Shown piece after piece: positions 26,574-63,492 of a DNA stretch of 64,000 bases. The translations under genes and the position numbers were made by a program. The first letter of the stretch is position 1. Every line of letters starts with the position of its first letter. This DNA comes from Adineta ricciae. Taxonomy: Eukaryota > Rotifera > Eurotatoria > Adinetida > Adinetidae. The notes beneath the pieces are model-generated. The model was not told the origin of the DNA, made no database searches, and saw only the letters and a program-made list of their open reading frames with translations. Where the stretch lies: the NCBI GenBank assembly GCA_905250025.1, contig CAJNOJ010000454.1, forward strand, positions 1 to 64,000, in the 5' to 3' direction.

Positions 26574-26574
26574 T

Positions 26575-26602
<28 letters not shown>
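26574..26602. repeat. (GA)n microsatellite
   Basis: Uninterrupted GA run of about 29 bp in the 5' non-coding part of the hAT element. Confidence 0.85.
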
Positions 26603-26606
<4 letters not shown>

Positions 26607-26827
26607 GGCAGCTGGAGAGAGAGATATACACGTTCAATGCCATCCTTTTTTTACTTTCCTCTCTATGTTGTTGTAATTGCATATACATATACAAGCAAAA
26701 GTCACAGAACACATTGTAACAGAATCGTTGATATAGATTTGTGAAAGTTCATTGCAGTGCGGTTCTTTTTGACGCAAGGTTCATTTTGCTAGCTTATTTA
26801 TCAAATATATAGTAGAATAACTAAGAA

Positions 26828-31839: not shown

Positions 31840-32101
31840 GCATTAGCAAATCTGAGACACTTTGTAGATCTGACTTTACTTTACTTTACTTTACTTTACT
31901 TTTCTGATAAAGTGAGTTAACTTTACTTTACTGGATAAAGTAAAGTACTTTACTTTACTTTATCCAGTAAAGTAAAGCATAAAAAAGTAACTTTACTTTA
32001 CTCGAGAAAGTAAAGTAAGATTTTTTACTTTACTTTACTGAGTAAAGTAAAGTATTTTACTTTACTTTAATCGGTAAAGTAAAGATAAAGTGCCACCCCT
32101 A
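31840..32101. repeat. Right subterminal TTTAC array of the hAT element
   Basis: Mirror image of the left array: GAGACACTTTGTAG, then TTTACTTTAC runs to about 32085, then the terminal TAAAGTGCCACCCCTA. Confidence 0.8.
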
Positions 32102-35607: not shown

Positions 35608-35870
35608 TTTGCTGATTAAAATTGATAGAGCATGAATAATCTTTCGTTTTTCTTTTATGTTGACAAATAGAAAACATCGATGAATCATAAAATATAGATT
35701 TGAAATGATTTAATCATTCAGTTAATATCGATCACAAAGCGAGTTTTGATGACAAACAATTGTGCACAGAAAAGAGTAGAAAGAAAAACATGTGTGTTAT
35801 TTCCTCGACTGAATGGAGGGGTTTGCCGGAAAAAAAAGTGGTCTTAAAAACTGAAATACGTTTGTATGTA

Positions 35871-36296
35871 CAGGGTGTCCGGAAAGTCATCTAACAAAAA
35901 GAAAATTGTATATACCGTTATTTCTCGTTCAAATTGAACAATTCTTTTTTCTAAGCGGAAAAGAAATGTTCAGAGCTTATATTCATAACGACGTGCCTAA
36001 TGAAACTATTTGTTAACTATGAAACATGGACTTCAACAAGAAAATTCCGCTTTTTTCACAGATAGGAAAAAATATATATAGAATGATGCAAAAGTCACTT
36101 TGTCCACAAAGAGAATTGAATAATTTCACCAAAGCTCAGATAAATGAGCTGGTATTTTTACCGGTGATATAGGTGCATTCAAGCTTTATATTCATACAGA
36201 TACACGTAAAGAGATTCTTTGCTAAATATACTGATTTTTATCCTATCAGTGGAAAAGTGGAATTTTCTTTTTGTTAGATGACTTTCCGGACACCTG
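35871..36296. mobile_element. 426-bp TA-flanked inverted-repeat element (MITE), unsplit copy
   Basis: Ends CAGGGTGTCCGGAAAGTCAT and its complement; TA on both sides (35869-35870 and 36297-36298). Non-coding. Counterpart of the split element at 24851-32430. Confidence 0.8.
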
Positions 36297-36298
36297 TA

Positions 36299-36703
36299 CT
36301 TAATCCGGCGCAAAATCCCAGATTTAACGAAATGACCCTAGTGCATTGGTTGAGAGAACGAGGTTGGATTATACCTTATTATACTCTAGCGGCTAATGCC
36401 AGTGATATTACTATGTGCAGAATCGTCGTGCGCTAAACGTTTACTCATAATCTCACGTCAATTCTTCTTGACGAAATTCGTCTTGTCCTCATTACCTTAG
36501 CAAATTATTATGGACATCAAGAATTGATTCAATCATTGGAAGTAGTACGCGATGAAATGCATGAACATCGATGCACGAAGCAACATCATCAACGAACAAC
36601 AAAGAATATTCGTTCCAAGTCGCATACAGAAATCATGACAATATGGAGAAAGATTCCAATGTTGTCAAAGGCAAAAAAGGTGGACATCGTACTGTGCATG
36701 TGA
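36299..36703 (+). pseudogene. Glutamate decarboxylase relic, second copy
   Basis: Same sequence as 32431-32855 with the same in-frame TAA after RIVVR (about 36433-36435), and in addition a 10-bp deletion near 36630 that removes the basic tail and HVIC end from the frame. Decay has gone further here. Confidence 0.6.
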
Positions 36704-36893
36704 TTTGTTAGACATTTCATCAATAAGAATACTAATTGTCTAACAATTTTTCTGTAGTGTTTTTTCGAAATTTTATCAATCGAATGTATGAATCTATCAA
36801 TACATTGTAAACATTAAGTTCGTGTCAAAGCTTTTTAATCCTTCGAATACGTTTCGTCTCTCTTATATACATAAGGATATAATATTATATGAG

Positions 36894-37059
36894 TGTAACG
36901 ACAAACTTTATTCAAGGTGATTCGACTGGCTTTATTTCAACCAAACATTTCCTTTTATATTCGTTCTCTCTGTTCTCTTTTCTTTTGAGCGCATCGGTCA
37001 AGAGAGAACAGGGAGAGAAAGAGACGGACAGAGAGAAACACGAAGAAGAGAAAAGAATC
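36894..37059. mobile_element. LTR-like fragment, cut by gap
   Basis: The copy of the locus breaks off exactly at ATGAG and continues with TGTAACGACAAACT, the same first 14 bases as the solo LTR at 45999. The first copy reads straight through this point (ATGAGACATTATATG near 33030), giving an empty site. A purine-rich GAGA tract precedes the N at 37060. The right end is not visible, so a target duplication cannot be checked. Confidence 0.5.
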
Positions 37060-37060: not shown

Positions 37061-37755
37061 TCTGTCTAGCGGATGTGTAATTAATAAAGTTTGTTCGATT
37101 TTATCAAATATCACTTGATTAGTTCCTCAAATAGTTTCAGTAATAGTTTAGTTCAATCTGTCAAAGCGTACACCTTTTGTACAAATAATATAATATGCTG
37201 AAAAATGAATTCTGTAAGTTTATTTGGAGATGAAGGCCATTTGATTAAAAAAAACATTTTTGCAGAAGATTTTCCTTTCATTTTAAGTTTTTTTTTGTCA
37301 TAATCCAGTAAAAAAAACTGCACATTTACAAACTAGCTTGGTCTAGAGAGGAAAGAGGTGTGATGAAAGGTGTGGTACCTCATCACGTCCACATTATTAT
37401 TCTTGATAAATCTAACGGAAAAAAACATCTTCTATTATTTATTCTGTCTACATTAAGTTTGCTTTAGAAAAAAAAAACAGGAATTGTTTGAAAGTACCTA
37501 CGTGAAAGATAGTTGGAGAGAAAAACAAAACTAATCTGAAAATCCTATTGCGTTGAATATCTGTCTCTCATTCAGTAAAAATCTACTTATAGGTGTTGTT
37601 TTTTTATCTTTCGATTTTAAATTTTACATGAGTAAAAATCATTCATCGATAAATAGATTTCCTTTTACTGTGCGTCTATATTCTTCAACGAAACAATACA
37701 CATTCTTCTTAGTCTTTTTTTCTCATAAGAATACATTTACGTATAGAATTTGAAA

Positions 37756-39923
37756 ATGATTTCTTTTTTGAATATAATAAGGCAAATCATGGCGAAACAA
37801 TCTATTCAAGGTATTCAAGAAATGCGAATTCGAACATTAACAACGCATTCGGTTATCGCTCCTGAAAATCTTCAATTTGTTAAAAGAGAACATGAATCAT
37901 GCGTCTTATTTTGATGATTATTGTACAAGCTATTTCAATCTATGTTCTCTGTAACAATAGAAATGGACATCATCATTAATCTGGGCTGCTCTGATTGTAA
38001 CATTTTCAACTAGTTTCGTTATGGGTGTGAATAATGGTGGTCCGAATCAATATAATTCAGTAATTATACTAATTTTGCCCTTCAAGATTTCAAGAAAACA
38101 TTTTTTTAGTTTATTATTCCTTGGACAAGAGGATATCCATTTCCGTATCAAAAAGCTGATGGCGTCGCACAATGGGTAGCGACTGTTTGGTGGGACTGTA
38201 ATTATACTGCAACTTCATCTTTTAATAAGACAGGCTATTACTATTTACCAAGAATACCTGTCGATAAACAGGTTGTACAAAGTATTGTCGATTCGATGCA
38301 TTCGATTTGTCTTGTTATTGGTGGAACAATTGGAGGTTTAACTGGGCAATATTGGTATTTGCTGTTTACAAGGTTAATAATCTCTAAAACATTTGTTTCT
38401 ATTTTTTCTTTAAATTTCCATATTATTTGTTTGTTCTGCAGACGCAATGCTATTTGTGTTAGTATGGTTTTTCAAGTAGTAGCGTCGATTCTTATGATAA
38501 TTCCATTGGAAATTTATAATGGATATACAAAAGGTGATCCTGATCGAAGAGAGATCAATAATGCACTTGAAAGTTAAAGATATTGCGGTTGCTATTCTTT
38601 ATATCTCACGTTTTCTTTCCGGACGGTCATCTGATAAGTTAGTCAATAAACAAAGAAATGTAAATTTTATTTGAAATAGGTTTGTGTTGTGTTGTATCGA
38701 CTATTTACTTAATGGACATAAGTGCGCGTGCCATGCGTGGTAAAGTTGTCACATTTCATCAGTTATTCGTCGTTATTGGACTTCCATGGTTGCTTGGCCA
38801 ACATGAGTAAGTTTCTCAATACATAATTCTTTCCTTATCTTTGTATCAATGATAGCAAATGGAATTGGGATATGTCGTGGATTGGATTGTTCTCATTCGT
38901 AGGTTGTTTTCTCCTTTGGACATTACCAGAAAGTCCACGATGGCTTGTGCAAGAACAACAACGAACTGAAGCAACTGCATCATTACGTATTCTTCGACAA
39001 GTTAATTTAATTGATGCAGAACTTGATGAAATTGAACGCGAAGAAGCAACTGTTGCAAGACAAAACATATCCATTTATGAGATGTTTGTTTTATATCGTT
39101 ATCGTTGGCCGTTATTGACTAGTACTGCACTGAATGCTGTTCAACAATTGTCCGGTATTAATACTGTAAGTATTCAAATATAAAAAAAAGGAATTCAAAT
39201 GAAAGAGATCAAAATAATGAATACTTTAAATTAAAGGTATTTTTTTATTCCAATGAAACGTTGTCGAATATTGGTTTTGTTGATGACAAAGTATATTGGG
39301 GTGTGCTTTCAACTGGTATTGTCAATCTCATTATGACAGCAACAGCAGTTAAATTTGTTGAAATATTCGGCCGTCGTCCATAGATTTTATATCCTCTTAT
39401 CATAATTACAATAGTTATGATGTTACTTTGTTTCTCTATTCAATATCATATACGTAAGTTTCTTGTATAGATTATAGTCAAAGTATTAATCTTAATATTT
39501 ATTGCTGTATCAGCAGTTGGACTCGGCCCCATTCCATATATATATCCAAACGAAGTATTTACAATTGATATGCGACCAGCGGCTCTATCAATATCAATAT
39601 TTGCTAGTTGGTTATGTAATACAAGTAACTATAACTTTTCTTTATCCAGATACTAATCATGATCGATCACGTCTGTTCTGTTTATCTAATATATAGTCAT
39701 CAATGTATTATTTCCATTGTTAAAATCAGTGTTGGCTGGATATACTTTTCTTATTTTTTGCCTTTTCTGTACAATAGCTTTTGCTCTTCTTTGGTTTAAA
39801 GTAAGTGTTTTATTTGTTTACGTATGGATGAAAAACACAAGACGAAGATTTTTATTTTAGATGCCTGAGACAAAACGTAAGAAGTTATCCGAAATCGAAG
39901 CCTATTGGGCTTACATTAATTGA
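37756..39923 (+). pseudogene. GLUT-type sugar transporter, decayed copy
   Basis: Collinear with the intact gene at 2107-4380 but with many lesions: a 28-bp deletion near 37879 removes the exon 1 donor (between two CAATTTG repeats); an insertion near 38572 gives an immediate TAA; the next donor is changed from GGTAAG to GATAAG (about 38631); a 24-bp in-frame deletion near 38780 removes eight residues of a TM helix; TAG at 39381-39383 follows GRRP; and a deletion near 39482 removes the acceptor and start of exon 8. The flanks also match (1411-2100 and 37061-37750), so the whole locus was copied. Remaining exons still show PESPRWL and QQLSGIN. Confidence 0.9.
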
Positions 39924-40887
39924 AAAATACAAATCATCTTCTGTGTACATATGTCATCATATTTCAGAACAGACTTGTTATCGATTTACTGTACAAAGAA
40001 AGCATTCTGATTCAACTCTATTTTACCTATTACAATAATAAACCTTCACTTAACTAATAGCTTCGCGCAAAATATCCTCGTATTGTTTAACTACTTATAG
40101 GCAACTAATCAGAATTGAAAGCAGTCAGAGATGATCAACACTTGAGGCCGTAGTTAGAGAAGTCTCCCGACCATTCTCATCCTCAGTAGAATTGTTGATC
40201 AGAGTTTACTTTTCGGTGAATTTTCGATTGTATTTGCATAAAATTCATTTTTTGTCTCCTAATGAAACCATGCCTTCTCTTTCGAAAAGTATCATTAATG
40301 GTCATGAATAACATCAGAAAGAAAACAAAAGAAAAAGCTGGCTCCAACAAAAAACAAAAGAATAGCGATCGAGCAGCTGTCTCATGTATGAAAAGGGATG
40401 ACAAAAATATCTTCGCTAATTGCCAGAAATAACGTTTAAAAGTAGTCATATATACTTCTTTGAATATTCATTTGTGACAAAGATGCCACGTATGAAAAAC
40501 TTGATATAAGTCGACAGTTTCTGCAAAATACATCTCGATGAAAACATCTCCTATGAGCTTTCTCATGTATTGTTGATGTCTTGATGTAATTATAATTCTG
40601 CTTGAACTGCCAAAATCCTATACGAATACAAGTGAAAGATCGTTGTAGTATATAAACATTCTTCAATTGATCTCAGCATGCTCTCGGTTGTGAGATAGGA
40701 TGATCTCCTTTCTTCTACAAGGGATTTCTTCAAGTTAGCTGTTTTCATGGATTCATATATGGTACGTATACGTGAGTACTGTCAATCAAATTCAAAATTC
40801 ATTGAAAAGGACACATTGCAAAAATCTATTCTTAGAATAAAAGTGCCGTTGCATAAAGTACATCACACCGAATTCGAAAAAATACAA

Positions 40888-41331
40888 TCAAATGTAAAGT
40901 TTATAGTCTTCGATCCAGACTTTGCTCGCTTCCAAATGTACATTCTTACAACATTTCAATGGATAAACACAGCTGATGAAAACAAGAACGGCAAATACCA
41001 TGCAAACAATGGCGCTACTGGAGAACATTGGATTTCCAGCTGTAGTGGAACTGTATTCGTAATATGGTACAGTAACAATCTGGTCTGCTGATGGTATTGT
41101 TGTAATACTTGAACTTGTCACCTCTGTTTGTTTCATTTCAGTAATCAATACTGTGGTGGTCTCATACAAATCAGTAGAATTCTGCATCAAGTTATTATTG
41201 TTTTCTGCAGAATTTGTTATCGAAGAAGTTGGAAATGTGTTCATCAGAGGTAATAGAAAAATATCTGAAATAATGAATTCAAAATACGGAAAATATTTGA
41301 ATAATTACTCACAAATTACAATGGCTACCAT
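40888..41331 (-). CDS. Miniature single-pass membrane protein 1, block A
   Basis: Exons 41331-41313 (19 nt) and 41264-40888 splice in frame to 131 aa. The tiny first exon supplies the start of a signal peptide (MVAIVI + YIFLLPLMNTFPTS). A Ser/Thr/Asn-rich ectodomain follows, likely O-glycosylated, then one TM helix (SAIVCMVFAVLVFISCVYPL), then a short tail CCKNVHLEASKVWIEDYKLYI of which KVWIED is shared with the paralogue at 43771-44214. No known domain; a small receptor, adaptor or mucin-like surface protein is possible but unproven. Open and intact, with a matching copy at 47145-47561 that differs mainly by a deletion in the ectodomain. Confidence 0.65.
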
Positions 41332-42169
41332 TGATACACACTGATTGTCTCGTTGTTAAAAAAAAAGAATGATATGCTAATATGTATCGAAGATGTATTC
41401 GTGTCTCGTCGACAACTTTTTCTGTTTTATCGGCAAATGCGCTAATCAGCAATTTTATAGATCTTACTAAAAATGTGTTACTTATAGAAAAATGAATAGA
41501 GCAAAACATCATGACATCACTTCAAGGTACCCGAATAGATTTTCTCATACTAACACAAGAGGGTAGGCAAACGCTTTTCGTTTATAAATAGAGTTAATCA
41601 TCATGATGTGAAAGACTACGAATAGAATATTAGTACGAGTGTTTCTTTTCAATATCATAATAAGTTTGTACCACATTTTGTATTGTATTCATCATCGTAT
41701 CACTTATTTTGTGTAACTGGCCCATGCGTTAGCAGCATGAGGCCATTTGGCTCTTTTGTTTAAGAGCTTGTGTAATGGAAATTAATACTACGAAGTAAAT
41801 TCTTATTTGCGTCTGATTTTTTTTTCAAACCAAAGAGCAAATTTCTCTACGAAATGACATGAATCTCTCTTTTATAACAACGAGATACACGGAATGTTGA
41901 TTTTACATTTAGACGGAACAAACGCGGATCGTTTGTTTTTTGTTTGATGAATACTTACACAAACGCATCAGAGATGCGAATCATAGGTTTCCATCGATGA
42001 AAATTCAATTAGGATGACGAGTGAGAAGCGATTTGAATAATTCAAAGTATTTAAATCCTGCAATATCATGTAAATCATGAAACGTTTTTCCACTCAAATT
42101 GATTCTGACATGTTCAACGTCGCGAAACGGATCGTACCGAACTGGAAAAGATAAAATGAAATATTAAGT
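41332..42169. other. Spacer between miniature membrane-protein genes
   Basis: No gene recognised; conserved with 47562-48428 in block B. Confidence 0.45.
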
Positions 42170-42577
42170 TTAATTATCACCCCAAATTTTCGCATATTCT
42201 CAATGACCAGACTTGGAGCATATCAATACACAAACACAACAGAGAATCGCGAGTATACTAATTACTATACCAACAGTGGCACCGCTCCGAGAGCGATGGA
42301 CTTTTGGCTGTGGTATAATAGCAACTTTTTCTTTTAGTATCGTCTAATTCTTATATGATAGTGTAAATTCCAGTTGAATTGAAACATGCAAACCAGCCTG
42401 CTCGTTTGTTGTAGAAAGATCTGTTAAACTTTGCACCGAGTTGTTATCGAAGAAGTTGGAATCGTGTCAGCTAGAGGACACAAAAGAATATCTGAAACAA
42501 TTAATTGAAAATATAGATTAGCAATCGTGTTAGACAAAGTGTTTTAATGAGAACTTACAAAAGAAAATTCCTACCAT
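42170..42577 (-). pseudogene. Miniature membrane protein 2, decayed, block A
   Basis: Keeps the family layout: a 19-nt-type first exon at 42577 (MVGIFF), acceptor near 42500, signal peptide continuation YILLCPLADTIPTSS, a Thr-rich ectodomain, a TM segment (GIVISILAILCCVCVLI) and the tail. The frame meets TAA soon after CKV, and the conserved SGHWENAKVW tail reads SGH-stop-EYAKIWGDN because Trp became TGA. Several lesions, so non-functional. Confidence 0.65.
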
Positions 42578-43770
42578 TTGTGTGTTGCTTCTCTCATGTC
42601 AAAATGAATTTGTTTTAGAAAAACGATGATGCGACTATTTTTAATTAAACGATATTCTCGTTCCGGCGACCAATGTTTTAATCAGCAATTGATACATCCG
42701 CGTGAAACAATGTTAGTCATTAAAAAGACGAATTGTGTAAAACATAGAGAGTCAGTCGTAACATGCAACCCTGTAAATAGAATGTCAATACACGAATAAG
42801 TTACTTCTCGTCAACATCATCATGATTTCGAATCATGTTCTACATTGTATCAATGACTCATAAGTTAATAATGCGGGATTACTTGAATTAGTAAGCGTAC
42901 AGCGATGGAGGATTTTCACAACAAGAATTGAAACGATAACATCTATATACATTCTCTCAATTTGGCCAAATTTGAAAATAGTAGTTGAGCAGCGACTGGA
43001 GATATCAATCGTGCTCTACGTGTCATAGATAATATCATAAAGTCAACTGTTTTTTTTCTATATTTTGTCGTTATTCCAAATGGTGATGGACAATAATACA
43101 CTAATCTTCGCTTGCATTTTATTCTTTTGCGCAGTTAAGTTCATCAATCTGACTAATGCCAGAAAAACAAATACAATAAAATAAAATAAAACATTTACTC
43201 AATGACACATTTGACTATGTTCAATAATGAAAAATAATCGACAAAACTAATAAGAGGTTCAGAAAAGATCATTGTGACCATATATCGTTATTTGTTCAAT
43301 TTATATTTCTATTCAAAACATCATCGTTAGATGTACAATAATTGGCAAAACTTTTTCATATTCAATGTAGTTGAATGTATCAGCAGCTTTATTTCGAGAA
43401 CAACTGTCACGTAGTTGCACATACGTCTGGAAGCAAGTCATGTCTCGACAATTACTATTAAAGTGAACAATATCTTAATTATTATAGAAACTATTAAAAT
43501 GAGACCTGAACGCGGTGTTTGAAAGGGCAAAATCTTGAGGGAACGTATTGAATCGTGTAAATTACAATTGGGAGGCCCTAAAGCTCATTAAGAGTACGGA
43601 AGTAAACGTGCTTTGGATGAACGGTGCCACACATGAGTCATTGGCATGACTGTACGAATGACGCCTATCACTGTTGAGAAACAAATTGAAAGCGTTTATT
43701 TCCGGGATAAAAACTGAGTTGAATAAAATAAATCAAAAGAAACATGAAAAAATAAAGTAAAATATCAAGT
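42578..43770. other. Spacer, no recognised gene
   Basis: About 1.2 kb conserved in block B (48861-50053). No open frame with coding character found. Confidence 0.45.
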
Positions 43771-44214
43771 TTAATCTTCGACCCAAACCTTGGCATTTTC
43801 CCAATGGCCAGACTTTTTACAACACATACCAACACAACAGAGAAGAACAAGCACACCAATTGCGATACCAGTAATAGCACCGCCCGAAAGTGATGATGAT
43901 GATGGTGAACCTGTAGTTCTATTATGATAATACGTAGTAGTAGTAGCAGCTTTTCCTATTGCTAGTCTAGTTGTATTAGTTAAATATGTAATTTTCATTT
44001 CATGCATATCAGAAATCGATGGTGTATTGCTTTGATATGATAATGCGACGCTTGATTGAGTTGACACATCAAAACTCGTCTGTTCATTTGTTTTGAAAGT
44101 TAGCATGGTGTTAACCAACGCGAAGGAAAACACATCTGAAACATTCAGTTGAAAAGACATCTATGAATGAGCATCGCACATAAAGAATTTCTCACATAAA
44201 AATATCAGCACCAT
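43771..44214 (-). CDS. Miniature single-pass membrane protein 3, block A
   Basis: Exons 44214-44196 (19 nt) and 44135-43771 give 127 aa. Signal peptide MVLIFL + YVFSFALVNTM; ectodomain rich in Thr/Ser with possible N-glycosylation sites (TNTT, HNRT); TM helix GAITGIAIGVLVLLCCVGMC; tail CKKSGHWENAKVWVED at the very end. Exon layout, phase and the terminal KVW-V/I-E-D motif match protein 1, so they are paralogues despite different ectodomains. Intact. Block B copy: 50054-50494. Confidence 0.68.
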
Positions 44215-45012
44215 CTGTTTACTGTCACTGAAATACGATTTTTGTTGCACATGAGAGTGTAATGGTATGTTTCAAAATGCTCGTACATCTGTGGCTTTTT
44301 ATACCTGATTCCGTATGACTCACATGGGAAAGTACCAACTGTAGAAGCAGAGGCGATGCGATATTCTCCTGATTCAGTTGGAAAATTTTAAAGAAAGGAA
44401 ATAGTTTCAATTAGCTCAAGTACCGTAAAGAAGGTGGCTTTTTTACAGTTCGTCAACAAAAAAAATACGTGTATAGCCGCCTTTATTTGCATTAAGTAAA
44501 TAACAATTTCGAGGACTTTTATTCTGTTTTCTTGAATAGACCAATTGGAATATTCTGTTTGCTGTATTGTGCCATTCTATTGAATATGATATTAATCAAC
44601 AAACATGGATTTTTTCTCGTTTTTTTGTTATTATATGTCAGACTTTCACCTACAGCCTTTGTAGAATCAAATTCAACCAAAGCATGACTTTATTGTTGTT
44701 AAAAAACTGTGGAACAGTCGTTGAATTAAATTTTCTGCACATTTTCTCACGAAAGCAAGATGTAACTCGATTGTTGCCTTCAAAAATTGACGATGATCTA
44801 TTCAGATAAAATAAAGTAGCATTCACACAAAAATATAAACGACAATGAATAGTGGATTTCATCGAACTTTATTAAAAGAATACTCAGACGTCTATTAGCT
44901 CATCCAATCACATATTTTTTTGATTGAGTTCCTCATGTGTTGGTAGCGTATTGTTGCTCGAATTTTTCATAAATGTATAACAATCAAGAGTTTCTAATGA
45001 TTGGAACGAAGA
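44215..45012. other. Spacer, no recognised gene
   Basis: Conserved in part with 50495-51012. Plus-strand frame 44567-44809 and its antisense partner look like chance frames. Confidence 0.4.
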
Positions 45013-45235
45013 TCATTGCGAATCTTGAACAAAGGCTGTACATACAAAATCAGCTTGCTTTTCAGCTTCTCGTCGGAGGGAACAGCATGATAAGCAAATG
45101 GCCATACCAATAATACACAGAACAACAGTTCCGATGATGACTATGATCATCTTGCTAGTATCATCGATTAGTTCAGTTTCAGTATCAATGCATGATTCAA
45201 ATGTTTCCCCATACACACGTCCGCGTGTCTAAACA
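45013..45235 (-). CDS. Miniature membrane protein 4, block A (C-terminally shortened)
   Basis: Only the exon with the membrane part is clear: an acceptor near 45235, then CIDTETELIDDTSK, TM helix MIIVIIGTVVLCIIGMAICL, and a Cys/Arg-rich tail (SCCSLRREAEKQADFVCTAFVQDSQ). The codon after DSQ is TGA here but CGA in block B, where about 35 more residues follow, so this copy is truncated. The first exon was not located; by analogy with its neighbours it should be a tiny signal-peptide exon upstream. No KVWVED tail. Confidence 0.45.
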
Positions 45236-45593
45236 CATCAGAACTTGTTCTTGGGAAATCATGATATTTGAAGCTTTTTCACTAGAACACTTCCACGTGC
45301 TCGTATCCGAAATACAGTTGTAATCTACTTTAAGAAAGAATACATATTTTGAACAAGCTGTCTTGTAGTACATAGACTATCTTACAGTCTACTCTGGGCT
45401 GTGCTGCCCTATTTAACGAGAAAAAACTAATATTTCCACGTCATAGGCACACACGATATATCATCTATAACAGGCAAAGTACATACAGTCGCGTCGGTAA
45501 ATATGGCTTCCTGCACAACTTCAATAACATTTCAAACCATATAATAGGCAATTCGTAGGCGAAATGAGTCAGGTTTAGTAGGGGGTTAATTGT

Positions 45594-45765
45594 ATGCGTC
45601 TATCACATTCTCTTTCTTGTGTCAATATTATTGCACCACACCATGTAAGAAATGAAGTAAAAATTTTGCAATATATATATGTACAAATACATTCTCAATT
45701 ACGTCGTTTACAGATGACAACGTTCGGTGGTAAAGTAAGGAAGGGTGATGTAGATTTGCGGAATT
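45594..45765 (+). CDS. 2OG-Fe(II) oxygenase, first exons only (cut by gap)
   Basis: Same as the first exons of the gene at 51693: MRLSHSLSCVNIIAPHH, intron GTAAGAAATG to TTTACAG, then MTTFGGKVRKGDVDLRN before the N at 45766. The rest is missing. Confidence 0.6.
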
Positions 45766-45766
45766 N
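45766..45766. other. Assembly gap (single N)
   Basis: Cuts the oxygenase gene of block A; unrelated sequence follows. Confidence 0.95.
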
Positions 45767-45998
45767 GTATACCGTCCGTCTATGAGTGACTTAGTATAAC
45801 ATTTATGAAAATTTCCATGTGCGCGATGTGAAAATAGAAAAACAGATGACAAAGGTCAATGGTTGGCCGTGAGTGGCCGACTGACTAGCCGTTGAGCGAT
45901 GAATTTTTCAGTCAACATAGTTAGTGCTGGAGAATTATCCACTGACAAATGGCTAATCGGTCTGATTCCTAGAAAGACCTCTGTATCTTATTTATTCT

Positions 45999-46205
45999 TG
46001 TAACGACAAACTGGTTGAGTAGTTGACCGCTTCTCACGGTATCGATGTTTATTGACTACTCTACATGACCAGAATGTATCTATTTCACAATAAGACACGC
46101 GCTTATATAGAGAAGAGGAAAAGAGAGATATGACCCGGAGATAGTATGATATAGAGGTGAGAGAATAAAGAACAGAAGGAGATGAACGATATCATTATCG
46201 TTACA
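45999..46205. mobile_element. Solo LTR (207 bp) with 5-bp target duplication
   Basis: Begins TGTAACGACAAACT and ends TATCGTTACA, so it has TG...CA ends with short inverted termini (TGTAACGA/TCGTTACA). It is flanked by ATTCT on both sides (45994-45998 and 46206-46210). It contains a TATA-like box (CGCTTATATAGAGAAG, about 46091-46106) followed by a purine-rich stretch. No internal retroelement region, so it is what remains after recombination between two LTRs. A related start lies at 36894. Confidence 0.72.
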
Positions 46206-47144
46206 ATTCTAGTTCTAGTGTGTGACATAATACCATGATTCAGTTGAGCGCCAGTAGCAATCGCAGTGCGTTTTTTCTCTTTCGAAGTCTCTGAATGTGT
46301 TCAGCATTCGGAAAAGTCTTGAGGGTGAGGGTCAGCGAATCCAAAGGATGAGCGTTACTTGTAGGCAACTAATCAAAATTGAAAGCAGTCAGAGATGTTC
46401 AACATGTGAGGCCGTAGTTAAAGAAGTCTCTCGATCATTCTCATCCTCAGTAGAATTGTTGATCAGATTTTACTTTTCGGTGAATTTTCGATTGTATTTG
46501 CATAAAATTCATTTTTTGTCTCCTAATGAAACTATGCCTTCTCTTTCGAAAAGTATCATTAATGTTCATGAATAACATCAGAAAGAAAAAAAAAAGAAAA
46601 AGCTGGCTCCAACAAAAACGAAAGAACAGCGATCGAGCAGCTGTCTCATGTATGAAAAGGGATGATAAATATATCTTCGCTAATTGCCAGAAATAACGTT
46701 TAAAAGTAGTCATATATATTTCTTTGAATATCCATTTGTGACAAAGATGCCACGTATGAAAAACTTGATACAAGTCGACAGTTTCTGCAAAATACATCTC
46801 GATGAAAACATCTCCTATGAGCTTTCTCATGTATTGTTGATGTCTTGATGTAATTATAATTCTGCTTGAACTGCCAAAATACTATACGAATACAAGTGAA
46901 AGGTCGTTGTAGTGTGTAAACATTCTTCAACTGATCTCAGCATGTTCTCGGTTGTGAGATAGGATGATCTCCCTTCTTCTACAAGGGATTTCTTCAAGTT
47001 AGCTGTTTTCATGGATTCATATTATACGTGAGTACTGTCAATCAAATTCAAAATTCATTGAAAAAGACACATTGCAAAAATATATTCTTAGAATAAAAGT
47101 GCCGTTGCATAAAGTACATCACACCAAATTCGAAAAAAATACAA

Positions 47145-47561
47145 TCAAATGTAAAGTTTATAGTCTTCGATCCAGACTTTGCTCGCTTCCAAATGTACAT
47201 TCTTACAACATTTCAATGGATAAACACAGCCGATGAAAACAAGAACGGCAAATACCATGCAAACAATGGCGCTGCTGGAGAACATTGGATTTCCAGCTGA
47301 AGCGTAATTATATTCGTAATATGGTACAGTCGTATTGCTTGAACTTGTCGTTTCTGTTTCTTTCATTTCAGTAATCAATACTGTGGTGGTCTCATGCAAA
47401 TCAGTAGAATTCTGCATCAAGTTATTATTGTTGTCTGCAGAATTTGTTATCAAAGAAGTTGGAAATGTGTTCATTAGAGGTAATAGAAAAATATCTGAAA
47501 TGATGAATTCAAAATACGGAAAATATTTTAATAATTACTCACAAATTACAATGGCTACCAT
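47145..47561 (-). CDS. Miniature single-pass membrane protein 1, block B
   Basis: Exons 47561-47543 and 47494-47145 give 122 aa. Same signal peptide, TM helix and SKVWIEDYKLYI tail as the block A copy. The ectodomain is nine residues shorter (a repeat of the ITTIPSADQIVTV type is missing) and reads NYASAG where A has SSTTAG. TM and tail are almost unchanged while the ectodomain varies, which fits a surface protein. Confidence 0.65.
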
Positions 47562-48428
47562 TGATACACACTGATTGTCTCGTTGTTAAAAAAAAAGAAT
47601 GATATGCTAATACGTATCGAAGATGTATTCGTGTCTCGTCGACAACCTTTTCTGTCTTATCGGCAAATGCGCTAATCAGCAATTTTATAGATCTTACTAA
47701 AAATGTGTTACTTATAGAAAAATGAATAGAGCAAAACATCATGACATCACTTCAAGGTACCCGAATAGATTTTCTCGTACTAACACAAGAGGGTAGGCAA
47801 ACGCTTTTCGTTTATGAATAGAGTTACTCATCATGATGTGAAAGACTATGAATAGAATATAAGTACGAGCGTTTCTTTTCAGTGTCATAATAAGTTTGTA
47901 CCACATTTTGTATTGTATCCATGCATCGTATCACTTATTTTCTGTAACTGGCCCATGCGTTAGCGGCATGAGGCCATTTGGCTCTTTTGTTTAAGAGCTT
48001 GTGTAACGGAAATTAATACTACGAAGTAAATTCCTATTTGTGTCTGATTTTTTTTCAAACCAAAGAGCAAATTTCTCTACGAAATGACATGAATCTCTCT
48101 TTTATAACAGGGACACGCAAAAACATAATTTTTCATCTAAAATTCGACTGATACATCCAGCAGAGGGCCAGTGGTGTGAGCTGCTCATTCGTTTGTTTCT
48201 GTTGGATGAATACTCGCACAAACGCATCAGAGATGTGAATGATATGTTTCAATCGATGAAAATTCAATTAGGCTGACGAGTGAGAAACGATTTGAATAAT
48301 TCAAAGTATTTGAATCCTGCAATATCACGTAAATCATGAAGCGTTTTTCCACTCATATTGATTCCGACATGTTCAACGTCGCGAAACGGATCGTACCAAA
48401 CTGGAAAAGATAAAATGAAATATTAAGT

Positions 48429-48860
48429 TTAATTATCACCCCAAATTTTCGCATTTTCTCAATGACCAGACTTGGAGCATGTCAATACACAAACACAACA
48501 GAGAATCGTGAGTATTACTAATTACTATACCAGCAGTGGCACCGCTCCGAGAGCGATGGACTTTTGGCTGTCGTATAATAGCACTGGTAGTAAGGTGTAA
48601 TAGCAACTTTTTTCTTTTAGTATCGTCTAGTTCTTATATGATAGTGTAAATTCCAGTTGAATTGAAACATGCAAATCAGCCTGCTCGTTTGTTGTAGAAA
48701 GATCCGTTGAACTTTGCACCGAGTTGTTATTGAAGAACTTGGAATCGTGTTAGCTAGAGGACACAAAAGAATATCTGAAACAATTAATTCAAAATATAGA
48801 TTAGCGATCGTGTTAGACAAAGTGTTTTAATGAGAACTTACAAAAGAAAATTACTACCAT
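48429..48860 (-). pseudogene. Miniature membrane protein 2, decayed, block B
   Basis: Same relic as 42170-42577. First exon at 48860 (MVVIFF-like), then YILLCPLANTIPSSS. A frameshift after TTRC separates this from the true ectodomain frame (STDLSTTNEQADLHVS). The tail again has TGA in place of Trp after SGH. The shared TGA shows the gene was dead before the blocks diverged. Confidence 0.62.
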
Positions 48861-50053
48861 TTGTATGTTACTTCTCTCGTGTCAAAATGAATTTGTTTTA
48901 GAAAAACGATGACGCGACTATTTTTAATTCAACGATATTCTCGTTCCGGCGACCAATGTGTTAATCAGTAATTGATGATACATCCGCGTGAAACAGTGTT
49001 AGTCATTAAAAAGACGAATTGTGTAAAACATAGAGAGTCAGTTGTAACACGTAAGCCTGTAAATAGAATGTCAATACACGAATGCTTCTCGTCAACATCA
49101 TCATGATTTCGAATCATGTTCTACATTGTATCAATGACTCATAAGTTAATAATGCGAGATTACCTGAATTAATAAGCGTACAGCGATGGAGGATTTTCAC
49201 AACAAGAATTGAAACGATAACATCTATATACATTCTCTCAATTTGGTCAAATTTGAAAATAGTAGTTGAGCAGCGACTGGAGATATCAATCGTGCTCTAC
49301 GTGTCATAGATAATATCATAAAGTCAACTGTTTTTTTTCTATATTTTGTCGTTATTCCAAATGGTGATGGCCAATAATACACTAATCTTCGCTTGCATTT
49401 TATTCTTTTGCGCAGTTAAGTTCATCAACTTGACTAATGCCAGAAAAACAAATACAATAAAATAAAATAAAACATTTACTCAATGGCACATTTGGACTAT
49501 GTTCAATAATGAAAAATAATCGACAAAACTAATAAGAGGTTCAGAAAAGATCATTGTGACCATATATCGATATTTGTTCAATTCATATTTCTATTCAAAA
49601 CATCATCGTTAGATGTACAATAATTGGCGAAATATTTTTCATATTCAATGTGGTTGAATGTATCAGCAGCTTTGTTTCGAGAACAACTGTCACGTAGTTG
49701 CACATACGTCCGGAAGCAAGTCATGTCTCGACAATTATTATTAAAGTGAACAATATCTTAATTATTATAGAAACTATTAAAATGAGACCTGAACGCGGTG
49801 TTTGAAAAGGCAAAACCTTGAAAGAACGTATTTAATCGTGTAAATTACAATTGGGAGGCCTTAAAGCTCATTGAGAGTGCGGAAGTAAACGTGCTTTGGA
49901 TGGACGGTGCCACACATGAGTCATTGACATGACTGCACGAATGACGCCTATCACTGTTGAGAAACAAATTGAAAGCGTTTATTTCCGGGATAAAAACTGA
50001 GTTGTGTAAAATAAATCAAATGAAACATGAAAAAATAAAGTAAAATATCAAGT

Positions 50054-50494
50054 TTAATGTTCGACCCAAACCTTTACATTTTCCCAATGGCCAGACCTTT
50101 TACCACATATACCAACACAACAGAGAAGAACAAGCACACCAATTACGATACCAACAATAGCACTGCCCGAAAGTGATGATGGTGATGGTGAATCTGTAGT
50201 TGTAGTATAATAAAACGTAGCAGTAGCAACTTTTCCTATTGCTACTCTAGTTCTATTAGTTAGATCTGTAATTTTCATTTCATGCATATCAGAAATCGAT
50301 GGCGTATTGCTTTGATATGATGATGAGACGCTTGATTGAGTTGACACATCAAAACTCGTCTGTTCATTTGTTTTGAAAGTTGGCATGGTGTTAACCAATG
50401 TGAAGGAAAACACATCTGAAACATTCAGTTGAAAAGACATCTATGAATGAGCATCGCACATAAAGGATTTCTCACATAGAAATATCAGCACCAT
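50054..50494 (-). CDS. Miniature single-pass membrane protein 3, block B
   Basis: Exons 50494-50476 and 50415-50054 give 126 aa. Matches 43771-44214: same signal peptide and TM region (SAIVGIVIGVLVLLCCVGIC), with many replacements in the Thr-rich ectodomain (RTRVAIGKVATATFYYTT). The tail ends SGHWENVKVWVEH, so the last Asp is His. Intact. Confidence 0.66.
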
Positions 50495-51012
50495 CTGTTT
50501 ACTGTCACTATGAAATACGATTGTTGTTGCAAATGAGAGTGTAATGGTATATTTGAAAATACTCGTACATCTGTGGCTTTTTATACCTGATTGAGGGTGA
50601 CTCACATACATAGGTAAGTACCAATTGTAGAAGCAGAGACGGTGATGTCCTGCTGATTACGTGGGAGAATTTTAAAGAAAGGATATAATTTCAATTAATA
50701 AACATGGATTTTTCCCGGTTTTTTTTTGTTATTATATGTCAGACTTTCACCTACGTACAGTCTTTGTAGAATCGAATTCAACAAAAGCATGACTTTATTG
50801 TTGTTAAAAATCTGTGGACCAGTGGTTGAATTAAATTTTCTGCATATTTTCTCACGAAAGCAACATGTAACTCGATTGTTGCCTTCAAAAATTGACGATA
50901 ATCTATTCAGATAAAATAAAGTAGCATTCACACAAAAATATAAACGACAATGAATAGTTAATTTCATCGAACTTTATTAAAAGAATACTCAGACGTCTAT
51001 TAGCTCATCCAA

Positions 51013-51345
51013 TCACATATTTTGATTGAGTTCTTCGTCATGTGTTGGCAGCGTATTGTTGCTCGAATTTTTCATAAATGTATAATAATCAAGAGTTTTT
51101 AATGACTGGAACGAAGATCGTTGCGAATCTTGAACAAAGGCTGTACATACAGAATCAGCTTGCTTTTCAGCTTCTCGTCGGAGGGAACAGCAAGATAAGC
51201 AAATGGCCATACCAATAATACACAGAACAACAGTTCCGATGATGACTATGATCATCTTGCTAGTATCATTGATTAGTTCAGTTTCAGTATCAATGCATGA
51301 TTGAAATGTTTTCCAACACATCTACGTGTCTGAACACATCAAAAC
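51013..51345 (-). CDS. Miniature membrane protein 4, block B
   Basis: Like 45013-45235 but with the full tail: after FVQDSQ it runs RSSFQSLKTLDYYTFMKNSSNNTLPTHDEELNQNM (shown for the start only: RSSFQSLKTLDYY). TM helix MIIVIIGTVVLCIIGMAICL and CCSLRREAEKQAD are identical. Just upstream of the Cys of CIDTETE a 4-bp deletion relative to block A changes the frame, so this copy may have lost its start. Each block thus has a different lesion in this gene. Confidence 0.42.
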
Positions 51346-51692
51346 TTGTTCTTGGGAAATCATGATATGTGAAGCTTTTTCACCAGAACACTCCCACATG
51401 CTCGTATCCTAAATACAGTTGTAATCTACTTTAAGAAAGAATACATATTTTGAACAAGTTGTCTTGCAGTACATAAACTATCTTACAGTCTACTCTGGGT
51501 GGTACTGCCCTATTTAACGAGGAAAAACTAATATTTCCACGTTATAGGCACACACGATATATCATCTATAACAGTTAAAGTACATACAGCCGCGACGCCA
51601 AATATGGCTTTCTGTACAACTTCAATAACATTTCAGACTATAATAGGCAATTCGTAGGCGAAATGAGTCAGGTTTAGTAGGGGGTTAATTGT

Positions 51693-52549
51693 ATGCGTCT
51701 ATCACATTCTCTTTCTTGTGTCAATATTATTGCACCACATCATGTAAGAAATGAAGTAAAAATTTTGCAATATATATATGTACAAATACATTCTCAATTA
51801 CGTCGTTTACAGATGACAACGTTCGGTGGTAAAGTAACGAAGCGTGATGTATATTTGCCGAATTCTGAGGATGAAGGTAAACTAGCTTTTATTATATTCA
51901 ATGTCTTTACTCCTGATGAATGTCAACAGTGGATTGAATTGAGTGAACAACGTGGTTATAGTCCAGCGACAGTTAATGTGGGTGCTGCTGAGTTAGTGCT
52001 GATGACAGATTTTCGAAACAGTGGTCGGTGTATTATTGATGATGCATCAATGGCAAATACGCTTTTTCAAAGACTCGAACAATTCCTTCCTAAAACATGG
52101 AAGAATTTTGAACTAGTCGGGCTCAACGAACGATTACGATTTCTTCGGTATGAACCAGGTCAATTCTTTGAAGCTCACATGGGTAAATATCTTAACGAAA
52201 GTATAGAATAGCGTCTAGATATTCTTCATTTCATAGATGGTGAATATCATCGTCCCGATGGATCAGGTGAACAAAGTTTCATAGTAAATATCTATTTTTT
52301 CGATTCAAAGTTCATTACTTATTTTGGTCTTTTTTATAGACCATCCAACTTTATTTAAACGAAGGCTACAAGGGTGGTGAAACTACATTTATTCACTACT
52401 CCGACGCACACAAAAATGTTCGGTGCATACCACGCACAGGAATGGTCCTTGTCTTCGAGCATCGACTACTACATGAAGGTTCAACACTGATCGAAGGACG
52501 AAAATACACGGTTCGCACGGATGTCATGTATCGACCCAAAAACAAATGA
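51693..52549 (+). CDS. Prolyl 4-hydroxylase-like 2OG-Fe(II) oxygenase
   Basis: Four exons, 51693-51743, 51813-52182, 52237-52283 and 52340-52549, give 225 aa. The P4Hc fold is clear: RFLRYEPGQFFEAHMD, where the iron-binding H-x-D pair (H139, D141) is completed only across the 54-bp intron. RRPDGSGEQSFITIQLYLN-type sequence follows (here GEYHRPDGSGEQSFI), then GGETTF, RTGMVLVFEH, and LLHEGSTLIEGRKYTVRTDV with the distal His and the Lys that holds 2-oxoglutarate. No signal peptide, so probably cytosolic or nuclear, unlike collagen P4H. Translation might start at 51813 (MTTFGG) instead. The gene lies tail to tail with an F-box gene, 7 bp from its stop. Confidence 0.85.
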
Positions 52550-52556
52550 CACTTTT

Positions 52557-52926
52557 TTAATCTCCCCACCATAAATAAAAGTTTTTATCGATGATTTTGA
52601 TGGAATAGTCATCGAAAACTCCATGTGCTTTGATCTGATCTTTCCAATATGTCATCCAATCTTGATACACCTCTCGAATGCACAACGAAAATAGGCGAAG
52701 AGTTGCATCGTTGATTTCTGACAGGAGATAATGCACAGTAGCATCCAGTGATCGCTCAGATCGGCCAATAGAAATGTATTGAACTCGAGGACAGAGATGA
52801 ACTAATACTTCCATCATCTTTTTCGTATAACGAGACGTAATGGTGATAGTTTTAATTCGATTTTCTTGCGAAACTAACTGAAAATCTTCACTTTCCACCA
52901 ACGACAGCAAGTTCTTCGGAGATTTT
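52557..52926 (-). CDS. F-box gene, 3' end only (cut by gap)
   Basis: Last 122 codons or so of an F-box protein identical in layout to 53386-55228, ending FYLWWGD. The N at 52927 removes the rest. Allelic or duplicate copy. Confidence 0.7.
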
Positions 52927-52927
52927 N
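52927..52927. other. Assembly gap (single N)
   Basis: About 830 bp before it (52098-52926) recur right after it (52928-53757). Confidence 0.95.
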
Positions 52928-53378
52928 GGAAGAATTTTGAACTAGTCGGGCTCAACGAACGATTACGCTTTCTTCGATATGAACCAGGACAATTCTTTGA
53001 AGCTCACATGGGTAAATGTCTTGACGAAAGTATAGAATAGCGTCTAGACATTCTTCATTTCATAGATGGTGAATATCATCGTCCCGATGGATCAGGTGAA
53101 CAAAGTTTCATAGTAAATATCTATTTTTTCGATTCAAAGTTCATTACTTATTTTGGCCTCTTTTATAGACCATCCAGCTTTATTTAAACGAAGGCTACAA
53201 GGGTGGTGAAACTACATTTATTCACTACTCTGATGCACAGAGAAATGTTCGGTGCATACCACGCACAGGAATGGTCCTTGTCTTCGAGCATCGACTACTA
53301 CATGAAGGTTCCACACTGATCGAAGGACGAAAATACACGGTTCGCACGGATGTCATGTATCGACCCAAAAACAAATGA
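52928..53378 (+). CDS. 2OG-Fe(II) oxygenase, 3' part (cut by gap)
   Basis: Copies 52098-52549: end of exon 2, both small introns and the last two exons, including the H-x-D completed across the intron and LLHEGSTLIEGRKYTVRTDV. Few silent or conservative differences (AHKNVR against AQRNVR). Its start lies beyond the gap at 52927. Confidence 0.7.
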
Positions 53379-53385
53379 CACTTTT

Positions 53386-55228
53386 TCAATCTCCCCACCA
53401 TAAATAAAAGTTTTTATCGATGATTTTGATGGAATAGTCATTGAAAACTCCATGTGTTTTGATCTGATCTTTCCAATATGTCATCCAATCTTGATACGCC
53501 TCTCGAATGCACAACGAAAATAGGCGAAGAGTTGCATCGTTGATTTCTGACAGGAGATAATGCACAGTAGCATCCAGTGATCGATAGGACGGACCAAGAG
53601 ATATGTATTGAACTCGAGGACAGAGATGAACTAATACTTCCATCATCTTTTTCGTATAACGAGACGTAATGGTGATAGTTTTAATTCGATTTTCTTGCGA
53701 AACTAACTGAAAATCTTCACTTTCCACCAACGACAGCAAGTTGTTCGGAATTTTTTCGATGGATTCCCATGTAATTGTACGTACATTCGGTGCCAGTCGT
53801 AGTAGTTTGATGAATATGTCGAAGTCTTTTTCAATATAATTCATAGTTAATTTTGTCAAGCGTCTGAGATCAAGAATACGGAGCAGCTCGTCGGTTAAGC
53901 ATAATTTTTTATCTGTAAAATTTACATGATTAATGGATAAGTCAGTTGCCTTTGCAAAAAAATATTTCGAACAACAAGAAATTACATCCGGATCGTGTAT
54001 AATGACATGATTAATAGAGTTCGTATCTACCTTGTCATGACATTTGAAATTAGTTACATTGAATCTGGAATCGAGCTCGAAGTATTTCTTTCTAAAAATA
54101 GATATAAATTGCAATCTCAATTGTGTCTATATGTACGTCATACCTATGCAACTGACTAGAACAAAATATCTCGTGTAGGCACGCTTCTGACATTGGTTCA
54201 TGTGTGAAAAATTTTTGTTCCATGTATGCTGCGATTCCAAAAGTGCTCGTATAGATTAATCGGCAGAATTCATATGTCAGGCGGCAGGGCGTTGATTGTC
54301 CATATTCGAAATTGAATGTACTCACATGTGGAATGTATGACTGGATGGACTTCTCCCATGCTTCTCGGTCGCCTATGTTCGGTATTGGCGACACATGTAA
54401 TACACTTATACGATTACAATGCTCTTTTACAAACTGTTCAATACCTTCGAGTGATACACGATCACCAAGTAGTGAAAAATATGTTGAGTCATGAAATATG
54501 ATCTGACAGAAGAGCATGTATCGTACGGGATATTCGTGTTTACGAGTAATAGATAAAAAACGTAGTTTTGGGACGTATGATCGAATTACATTAATTTCAT
54601 CGAAACTATAATTATCCATGATGATGAGACGCTCAATAGGACTCACTGAATTTATTGAAATTGCAGATAGTTTCAATGGAGCATCCGTTTGAAAGTTTAG
54701 TTTGCAAGATTTTAATGCAGGTAATTGAAATACTAAACTGTAAACTGTCGCTTGTTTTCCAACGCCCCCAATATAAATCGATAGCGACACAAGATTTGGT
54801 GCAGATGCTAAGGTAATGAGAACACTTTCCAAACGCTCCCATTCAATGTTACCTAAAGTCAAGGTTTGCAGTTGCGAACATTGTGAAATAGTAAAATAAT
54901 CAATGACGAATGGATTGAATAAATAGAGAGATCGAATTCGATGTTGATGATGCGAGATCATATCGTTGAAAGAGCGTTCAAATATTGTTTTTGATGCTGA
55001 TGACATTCCGATTCGAAGTGAGAGATTGGCATTTAAACAGAGATATTGGAGGCGTTGATTGAGTGAAAAGAAGCTTTGATGGAGTTGCTGAGCATCAAGA
55101 TGATCAAAGATTTCGTAGATGAGTTCATTGGCTAAGTGTTCGAATCGAGCGATGGGAAAATCTTGTTTGAATTTCTTTTTTTCGGCATTATCGACTGTCG
55201 ACGTAGAATGTCGTTTGTTTACATTCAT
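53386..55228 (-). CDS. F-box protein with LRR-like C-terminal region
   Basis: Exons 55228-54144 and 54091-53386 give 596 aa. After a basic start (KKKFKQDFP) comes an F-box at about residues 28-72 (FEHLANELIYEIFDHL, FFSLNQRLQYLC), which would bind Skp1 in an SCF ubiquitin ligase. The remainder has repeating 'L..L.L.....' units (QLQTLTLGNIEW, NLVSLSI, KLRFLSITR, HVSTFNF), a divergent leucine-rich solenoid that would select substrates. The end is FYLWWGD. The single 52-bp intron is shared by all family members in the window. Intact; tail to tail with the oxygenase. Confidence 0.82.
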
Positions 55229-55339
55229 TCTTGGACGAAATTTATTTCATTTTGAACGCTGACTTTTATACTCACAAATAAAATTGAATTGCACAACGTG
55301 GTGTAATTACAAATACTAAAAGCAGAACAGAAAGCTTTT

Positions 55340-55445
55340 CCATATAATCATGTGCTCATACCAAAACAGGCGATGTATCTTTCTAAATATTGTAACAAAA
55401 TATGCTACTATGAGCCGAATGACAGCTGACAAACACCGACTGAAA
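55340..55445 (-). pseudogene. Relic of the 2-TM Cys-rich module C-terminus
   Basis: On the minus strand about 55436-55375 reads CLSAVIRLIVAYFVTIFRKI, matching GLSTVIRFIVPYFVSMIRNI at the end of the three-module gene (about 58120-58180). Only this last TM segment is left, upstream of an F-box gene. The same relic is at about 62990-63060. Confidence 0.55.
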
Positions 55446-55739
55446 AATGTACTTGACTTAGATTGGCAGAAACTTCAAAGTTGTTATGTATATATTGTTC
55501 AAAATCTACGTGGAAATTATATTGATGCCCCTGGTTATTAGTACTTGTTGATGAAGGAAAGTGATGTTGAAATGACATCATGGTGAGTCCTACTTGTGAA
55601 CTATCTTGATGAATGTTATATCTATCAATTTTCTCTAATACCTTAAGAGAAATCTGTGAGGAGTTAGAGAACATTTTGACTTCATCAAACACCTTTTTCA
55701 CTAGATTTAACTTTCACTTCATTATAGACTATTAACTCT

Positions 55740-55890
55740 ATCTATAGGTGTAGGTTACAGTGATGTTGAAACTACATTTATTCATTACTCTCAGACACAG
55801 GAATGGTCCTCGTGTTCGAGCATTGTCTGCTACATGAAGACTAAAAACTGTTCGCACTGATGTCATGTATCGACTTAAAAACAAGTGACA
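55740..55890 (+). pseudogene. Relic of the oxygenase last exon
   Basis: After an acceptor-like TATAG, the sequence still resembles the oxygenase end: GTTGAAACTACATTTATTCA (VETTFIHYS), then GGAATGGTCCTCGTGTTCGA and GATGTCATGTATCGACTTAA, with internal deletions that remove the distal His/Lys region. It lies next to the F-box stop exactly as in the intact pair. Another copy is at about 63350-63485. Confidence 0.65.
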
Positions 55891-55895
55891 CTTGT

Positions 55896-62831: not shown

Positions 62832-62959
62832 TCTTGGACGAAATTTATTTCATTTTGTACGCTGACTTTTATACTCACAAATAAAATTGAATTGCACAAC
62901 GTGGTGTAATTACAAATACTAAAAGCAGAACAGAAAACTTTTCCATATAATCATGTGCT

Positions 62960-63490: not shown

Positions 63491-63492
63491 GT

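Follow-up and report, generated by a model that had tools for sequence, protein, structure and literature searches.

Mucin-like or sialomucin-like type I membrane glycoproteins have a signal peptide, a cysteine-free ectodomain rich in Ser and Thr, a single transmembrane (TM) segment and a short tail. FXYD regulators are small type I single-pass proteins with a PFxYD motif, and the VSPs of Giardia are characterized by CxxC repeats and a CRGKA tail. The locus described here was compared with these systems. It lies in a stretch of 64,000 nucleotides from Adineta ricciae (contig CAJNOJ010000454.1, positions 1 to 64,000), which is referred to as the window. A small gene family encoding short one-pass membrane proteins is almost certainly real at this locus, and its predicted products are best read as small surface proteins of type I, mucin-like in character and restricted to one lineage. 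The preliminary description knew of no account of such a family, and none was met in the literature listings searched. The features are as follows.

40092 to 45765: block A, the right part of contig C6 (37061-45765), which stops at the single N at 45766
40888 to 41331, minus strand: g1 copy A, exon 1 41331-41313 (19 nt), intron 41312-41265 (48 nt), exon 2 41264-40888; predicted protein of 131 aa with the tail KVWIEDYKLYI
42131 to 42588, minus strand: g2 copy A, pseudogene of the small membrane protein family, frame broken
43771 to 44214, minus strand: g3 copy A, exon 1 44214-44196 (19 nt), intron 44195-44136 (60 nt), exon 2 44135-43771; predicted protein of 127 aa, TATA-like box 89 nt 5' of the ATG, AATAAA 71 nt 3' of the stop
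44908 to 45376, minus strand: gene 4 copy A, remnant of an unrelated coding sequence with a single TM segment, frame broken; AATAAA 35 nt beyond its last stop
45766: single N separating the contig that ends in block A from the contig that holds block B
46356 to 51864: block B, within contig C7 (45767-52926), probably the other allele of block A
47145 to 47561, minus strand: g1 copy B, 122 aa, without 9 ectodomain codons of copy A
48390 to 48870, minus strand: g2 copy B, the same pseudogene as g2 copy A
50054 to 50494, minus strand: g3 copy B, predicted protein of 126 aa with the tail KVWVEH
51013 to 51441, minus strand: gene 4 copy B, a remnant with breaks at sites other than in copy A

Shared design and common descent of g1, g2 and g3

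A 19-nt first exon in phase 1 had been proposed for these genes, and the predicted models of g1 and g3 bore this out, with a 19-nt first coding exon followed by a phase-1 GT-AG intron (48 nt in g1, 60 nt in g3). The N-terminus of both products was hydrophobic and resembled a signal peptide, and each product had one hydrophobic TM segment. Ser and Thr made up 35% of the ectodomain in g1A, 32% in g1B and 38% in g3A (g3B was left out of the count), and the counted ectodomains contained one or two N-glycosylation sequons each and no cysteines. The proposed tail motif KVW[IV]E[DH] was found in both genes, as KVWIED in g1A and g1B, KVWVED in g3A and KVWVEH in g3B; within the window, the tail pattern occurred in the four intact genes only. 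A strict scan of both strands of the window with first-exon lengths from 10 to 40 returned four matches, all of length 19, and these models were g1 and g3, each in two copies. In 40 first-order Markov random windows, no model appeared at a first-exon length of 19; the filters of the strict scan were chosen after the genes had been seen, so this result describes specificity and carries no p-value. A laxer first scan gave six models, two of which (starts at 60026 and 16193) were parts of unrelated larger reading frames.

The preliminary description had counted at least four genes of one design per block, some of them pseudogenes. The second part was borne out, with the g2 frame broken in both copies and its in-frame stops at the same places in A and B. 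The count was reduced to g1, the dead g2 and g3. Gene 4 was rejected as a fourth member, since neither copy matched the family profile (copy A scored E = 3.6, copy B was absent up to E = 10), and the strict 19-nt first-exon scan gave no model for it. Its frame was disrupted in both copies, at different places.

Sequence comparison established that the three predicted genes are paralogues, with the 19-nt exon and the intron position common to all three, and that the predicted signal peptide, TM segment and tail of the intact frames are of common descent. The paralogue similarity was reached in 0 of 2000 shuffles for the signal peptide, 0 of 2000 for the TM segment plus tail and 0 of 20000 for the tail alone; for the ectodomain it was weaker (41 of 2000). 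Between g1A and g3A, 10 of 70 ectodomain residues were identical versus 9 of 18 tail residues (p = 0.0025). Moreover, a protein profile made without g2 detected g2 copy A at E = 8.7e-6. Searched against the window, the profile of the four intact proteins found pieces of g2 and, beyond them, no convincing match, and the DNA profile found its six source copies, followed by a next match at E = 1.5.

Probable allelic origin of the two blocks

The two blocks reported earlier were present as sequence (92.6% and 93.2% identical), but they probably do not represent two loci. Blocks A and B are very probably alleles of one locus, and on this reading the assembly would have joined two allelic contigs in a row, so that the locus appears twice in the window. 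Scaffolders can represent a negative gap by a single N. All eight single Ns lay one base from the edge of a duplicated stretch, and only 1.1% of positions lay within 3 bases of such an edge. Suffix-prefix overlaps occurred at two of the eight joints, one identical (1188-1408 / 1410-1630) and one at 96.6% (52099-52926 / 52928-53754). Furthermore, the contig at 35608-37059 lacked the transposon-like insert found at 24894-32101 in another contig and showed its site empty, with the 8-base duplication GTTCAGAG of this insert present there as a single copy. Against an allelic origin stood about 60 extra bases beside the empty site in that contig, the homology of C7 to C6, which began 589 bases inside C7, and the chimeric appearance of C6 at a shared repeat of 237-239 bp. 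Passages of PMC6733440 and PMC8110574 contained no explicit mention of one N as the sign of an overlap between joined contigs.

A true recent tandem duplication, by which the cluster would hold four intact family genes, was judged quite improbable. In the scaffold as it stands, the blocks follow each other directly in tandem, block B does not begin at an N on its left side, and assemblies can also be broken by genuine repeats that are nearly identical; however, block A stopped exactly at an N, as duplicate edges did at all eight, and the overlapping joints also argued against duplication. The block divergence (206 mismatches in 4392 columns and 63 in 1191) fell within what the remaining pairs bounded by Ns showed, 0 to 177 mismatches in 2607. 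Since the blocks are probably two alleles, comparing them does not bear out birth and death driven by duplication. One dead member out of three fits the proposed gene birth and loss on a very small scale. The more useful lesson is one of caution: the single Ns in this scaffold mark near-identical stretches, most likely alleles, joined end to end, and hence adjoining duplicates should not be taken for tandem gene families.

Divergence between copies and the possible role of the products

Between the copies of g1, 10 of 59 ectodomain residues differed, versus 1 of 47 residues in the TM segment and tail (Fisher p = 0.02), and the tail was identical. For g3, the values were 14 of 72 and 8 of 38 (p = 1.0); its tail differed at 4 of 17 residues. 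The claim of a variable ectodomain beside a kept TM segment and tail thus applied to the paralogues and to the g1 copies, but not to the g3 copies. The dN/dS between copies was 0.57 for g1 and 1.59 for g3, neither distinguishable from 1 (each p > 0.25); these values give no sign of purifying selection and would also fit weak or absent constraint. Coding indels between the copies, a point in favour of a real gene family, amounted to 27 nt in g1 and 3 nt in g3 versus 23 and 1 nt in g2, and both exon-2 indels of g1 and g3 preserved the frame. Nonsynonymous sites differed at 24 of 285 in g3 versus 122 of 2463 in pooled noncoding DNA (p = 0.018, two tests, uncorrected), which is a weak hint for the recognition or defence reading, and local divergence between the copies ranged from 1.7% to 11.7%; the g1 value against the same noncoding DNA was 12 of 283 (p = 0.77).

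A mucin-like surface-coat role is proposed tentatively, at slightly under an even chance, from the composition of the predicted proteins. One locus would hold three neighbouring paralogues, of which g1 and g3 have intact predicted frames and g2 is dead. The products would enter the secretory pathway, and the short Ser/Thr-rich, Asn-containing ectodomain would stand in the coat of the cell surface as an extended, mucin-like stalk, probably bearing glycans and with little constraint on its sequence. The juxtamembrane cysteines may be lipidated, and the KVW[IV]E[DH] tail may dock a sorting or cortical adaptor. AlphaFold models of the exon-2 peptides were of low confidence (mean pLDDT 48.4, pTM 0.17), with a helix at the place of the TM segment (residues 85-104 of the exon-2 peptide). 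No tandem repeats were found in 40500-51900, and each ectodomain had 2-3 prolines; a classical mucin was ruled out by the few prolines and the lack of tandem repeats.

It is unlikely that the products are small regulatory subunits with a filler ectodomain, binding through TM segment and tail to a partner such as a transporter, channel or pump. Their small size, the preservation of signal peptide, TM segment and tail between paralogues and a GxxxGxxxG pattern in the g3A TM segment would suit such subunits, but the g1 TM segment was without a GxxxG pattern, the g3 copies differed at 8 of 38 TM and tail residues, and neither an FXYD motif nor a Pfam family above the cut-off was found. Decay of the genes, with g2 and gene 4 dead and g3 near-neutral, was considered decidedly unlikely. 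The broken frames and the dN/dS values agree with it; nevertheless, the frames, splice sites and tail of g1 and g3 have survived far divergence of the ectodomain, the exon-2 indels kept the frame and the g1 tail was unchanged.

Surface recognition or defence, the role originally suggested, received no positive support from Pfam, the PDB, the low-confidence structure model or dN/dS, and receptors of this kind under diversifying selection are very unlikely. Although the ectodomain diverged faster than the tail between paralogues and between g1 copies, and the g3 nonsynonymous rate exceeded the noncoding rate, the TM segment and tail of g3 changed as much as its ectodomain, no domain and no ITAM-like motif were found, the counted parts of the four intact proteins had no ectodomain cysteines, and just two genes are intact. 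Slightly less probable still is a rotifer-like animal lineage with minimal surface receptors of its own, in which free ectodomains (g3 changing faster than noncoding DNA) would be combined with subunits pairing through GxxxG-type TM segments and an invariant Trp-containing tail would recruit one adaptor.

Comparison with known families

For the four predicted proteins, 100 pattern matches in viral contigs and 81 in prokaryotic genome contigs were obtained, none of which was confirmed (by tblastn for the viral contigs). The PDB profile search gave no match at E up to 10, and Rfam gave none in the window. These collections are prokaryotic, viral or curated, so they say little on absence in animals. 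Separately, Pfam found TPR repeats only, and no ADP-ribosyltransferase, in the reading frame at 10174-12858. If the family is expressed, it would add to the known lineage-restricted families of small surface proteins, and its conserved tail motif could serve in the search for relatives and for a partner that binds it.

Pfam searches with g1A and g3A gave no family above the cut-off. A single sub-threshold match linked g3A residues 55-112, around the TM segment, to the Giardia VSP family (PF03302; E = 0.0035), but it scored 16.7 bits where the curated cut-off is 31.4, g1A gave no match, and the four intact proteins lacked both CxxC and CRGK. The predicted g1 and g3 products are small, type I and single-pass, as are the FXYD regulators, but the PFxYD motif was present in none of the four intact proteins. 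With respect to mucin-like type I glycoproteins, the ectodomain of about 60-70 residues differs in its few prolines, its lack of repeats and the lack of a sequence match, whereas the signal peptide, the Ser/Thr-rich cysteine-free ectodomain, the single TM segment and the short tail of the predicted products all correspond.

Gene models of the small membrane proteins

The design proposed in the preliminary description was seen in the predicted models of g1 and g3, two genes that occur once in block A (40092-45765) and once in block B (46356-51864). The gene 4 remnant, which was claimed as a further member, is listed with them.

Predicted genes and remnant in the two blocks
41331-40888, minus strand, g1 copy A, 131 aa
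47561-47145, minus strand, g1 copy B, 122 aa
44214-43771, minus strand, g3 copy A, 127 aa
50494-50054, minus strand, g3 copy B, 126 aa
about 45376-44908 (copy A) and 51441-51013 (copy B), minus strand, gene 4, different single-TM remnant

In all predicted models of g1 and g3, the first coding exon measured exactly 19 nt. A GT-AG intron (48 or 60 nt) separated it from the second exon, in which the protein was completed. The N-terminus of each protein was hydrophobic and signal-like; a Ser/Thr-rich ectodomain, a single transmembrane (TM) segment and a short tail followed. The tail carried the motif KVW[IV]E[DH], which appeared as KVWIED, KVWVED or KVWVEH. For g3, a TATA-like box was located 89 or 91 nt 5' of the ATG, and AATAAA lay 71 nt 3' of the stop. 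For g1, the TATA-like box was 128 nt upstream (copy A had another at 255), and AATAAA/ATTAAA was absent within 300 nt. Both strands were scanned strictly (donor GT[AG]AG; acceptor CAG or TAG; hydropathy criteria for signal and TM; protein length 100-160 aa) with first-exon lengths of 10 to 40, and matches occurred at 19 nt only (n = 4). The same scan at 19 nt gave 0 models in 40 random windows, with filters that were tuned post hoc. A looser scan gave six models, two of which were pieces of larger unrelated frames.

At the DNA level, the pseudogene g2 matched the family in its entire layout, including the 19-nt exon and the intron. A protein profile built without g2 recovered its copy A at E = 8.7e-6 and its copy B in weaker pieces (E of 0.058 and above). 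The frame was broken in both copies, and the stops fell at equivalent positions of the alignment; hence, the death of g2 preceded the parting of the copies. According to windowed identity at 42131-42588 and 48390-48870, the 5' part of g2 was closer to g1 and the 3' part closer to g3, which hints that g2 may be a mosaic of g1-like and g3-like parts.

At least four genes of one design had been proposed per block. Gene 4 was ruled out as a family member because the family profile gave E = 3.6 for copy A and left copy B unlisted. Its two copies were broken at different places.

Paralogy and divergence between copies

The residues common to g1A and g3A numbered 8/16 in the signal peptide, 10/70 in the ectodomain, 8/21 around the TM segment and 9/18 in the tail. 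One partner was shuffled, and the scores were compared with the observed one. The observed score was reached by 0/2000 shuffles for the signal peptide, 0/2000 for TM plus tail and 0/20000 for the tail. The ectodomain homology was weak taken alone, because 41/2000 shuffles reached the observed score.

Between copies A and B, the Nei-Gojobori dN/dS was 0.57 for g1 (12 nonsynonymous, 6 synonymous; Fisher p = 0.26) and 1.59 for g3 (24 and 5; p = 0.50), and neither differed from 1. The expected contrast of a variable ectodomain with a conserved TM segment and tail held for g1 (10/59 versus 1/47, p = 0.02) and failed for g3 (14/72 versus 8/38, p = 1.0). The exon 2 indels were in frame in both genes (27 nt in g1, 3 nt in g3). 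Those of g2 were 23 and 1 nt, and gene 4 had 4 nt in the ectodomain part and none in the TM-tail part. The comparison pool consisted of introns, intergenic DNA and g2; gene 4 and the regions upstream of g1 and of g3 (the latter at 11.7%) were excluded. Relative to this pool, g3 had an excess of changes at nonsynonymous sites (24/285 versus 122/2463, p = 0.018), and g1 had none (12/283, p = 0.77). The g3 excess is explicable by local variation, because divergence between copies was 1.7% at its lowest, in the g3 intron, and 11.7% at its highest, upstream of g3.

Assembly joints and status of the two blocks

Eight single Ns (1409, 17297, 19903, 35607, 37060, 45766, 52927 and 62095) cut the window into nine contigs. 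Each of the eight was one base away from a terminus of a self-match (80 bases or longer), and 1.1% of all positions had such a terminus at a distance of three bases or less. Suffix-prefix overlaps were found at two joints: 1188-1408 equalled 1410-1630 with 0 mismatches, and 52099-52926 matched 52928-53754 at 96.6%. The N at 45766 was the exact end of block A, which matched the inside of the next contig; the first 589 bases of that contig had no match to block A. Contig 37061-45765 tracked two partners: as far as 40328 it matched contig 1410-17296, and from 40092 onward it matched contig 45767-52926. This partner switch lay in a 237-239-base repeat common to the three contigs (40092-40328, 4549-4787 and 46356-46592), and the contig is either chimeric or a real ectopic junction.

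Blocks A and B differed at 206/4392 and 63/1191 columns, and the other N-bounded pairs at 0/221 to 177/2607. According to excerpts of one report (PMC5916493), separately assembled homologous copies diverged by a median of 4.55% (A. ricciae) or 1.42% (A. vaga), and SSPACE served to scaffold the contigs of published bdelloid genomes. Blocks A and B are very likely alleles, and the scaffold probably consists of allelic contigs that overlap in a chain.

The window also contained an insert that resembles a transposon (24894-32101, about 7.2 kb); it had inverted ends and was accompanied by the target duplication GTTCAGAG (8 bases). The next contig, 35608-37059, matched both flanks (97.3% and 97.5%) and carried GTTCAGAG singly, as the empty site, with about 60 extra bases beside it. 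The insert is presumably hAT-like; two frames inside it had no named match in Pfam. Moreover, the 3' part of possibly one large minus-strand gene was present twice at 93.0% identity (12963-15565, 17298-19902 and 20041-22099). This putative gene adjoined a DnaJ-FYVE frame, and the second copy of the 3' part had Ns on both sides. Related minus-strand reading frames were present in several copies, with pieces 72-97% identical, at 52435-57670 and 62096-64000; the one frame of this group compared with Pfam had no match.

Possible working of the proteins

Judging from the anatomy, the signal peptide would direct the proteins to the secretion route, and the single helix would serve as a membrane anchor. 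The structure model was poor (mean pLDDT 48.4) and placed a helix over the TM segment. The ectodomain, which carried many Ser/Thr residues and one or two sequons for N-glycosylation, would be extended; a mucin-like coat protein is the tentative first choice. The cysteines at the inner membrane face are candidates for lipidation, and the tail motif may dock a partner. A small regulatory subunit is a rather unlikely reading, and a receptor is improbable. The three readings are not strictly exclusive. In the comparisons with known families, the g1 and g3 proteins showed none of the defining features that were tested.
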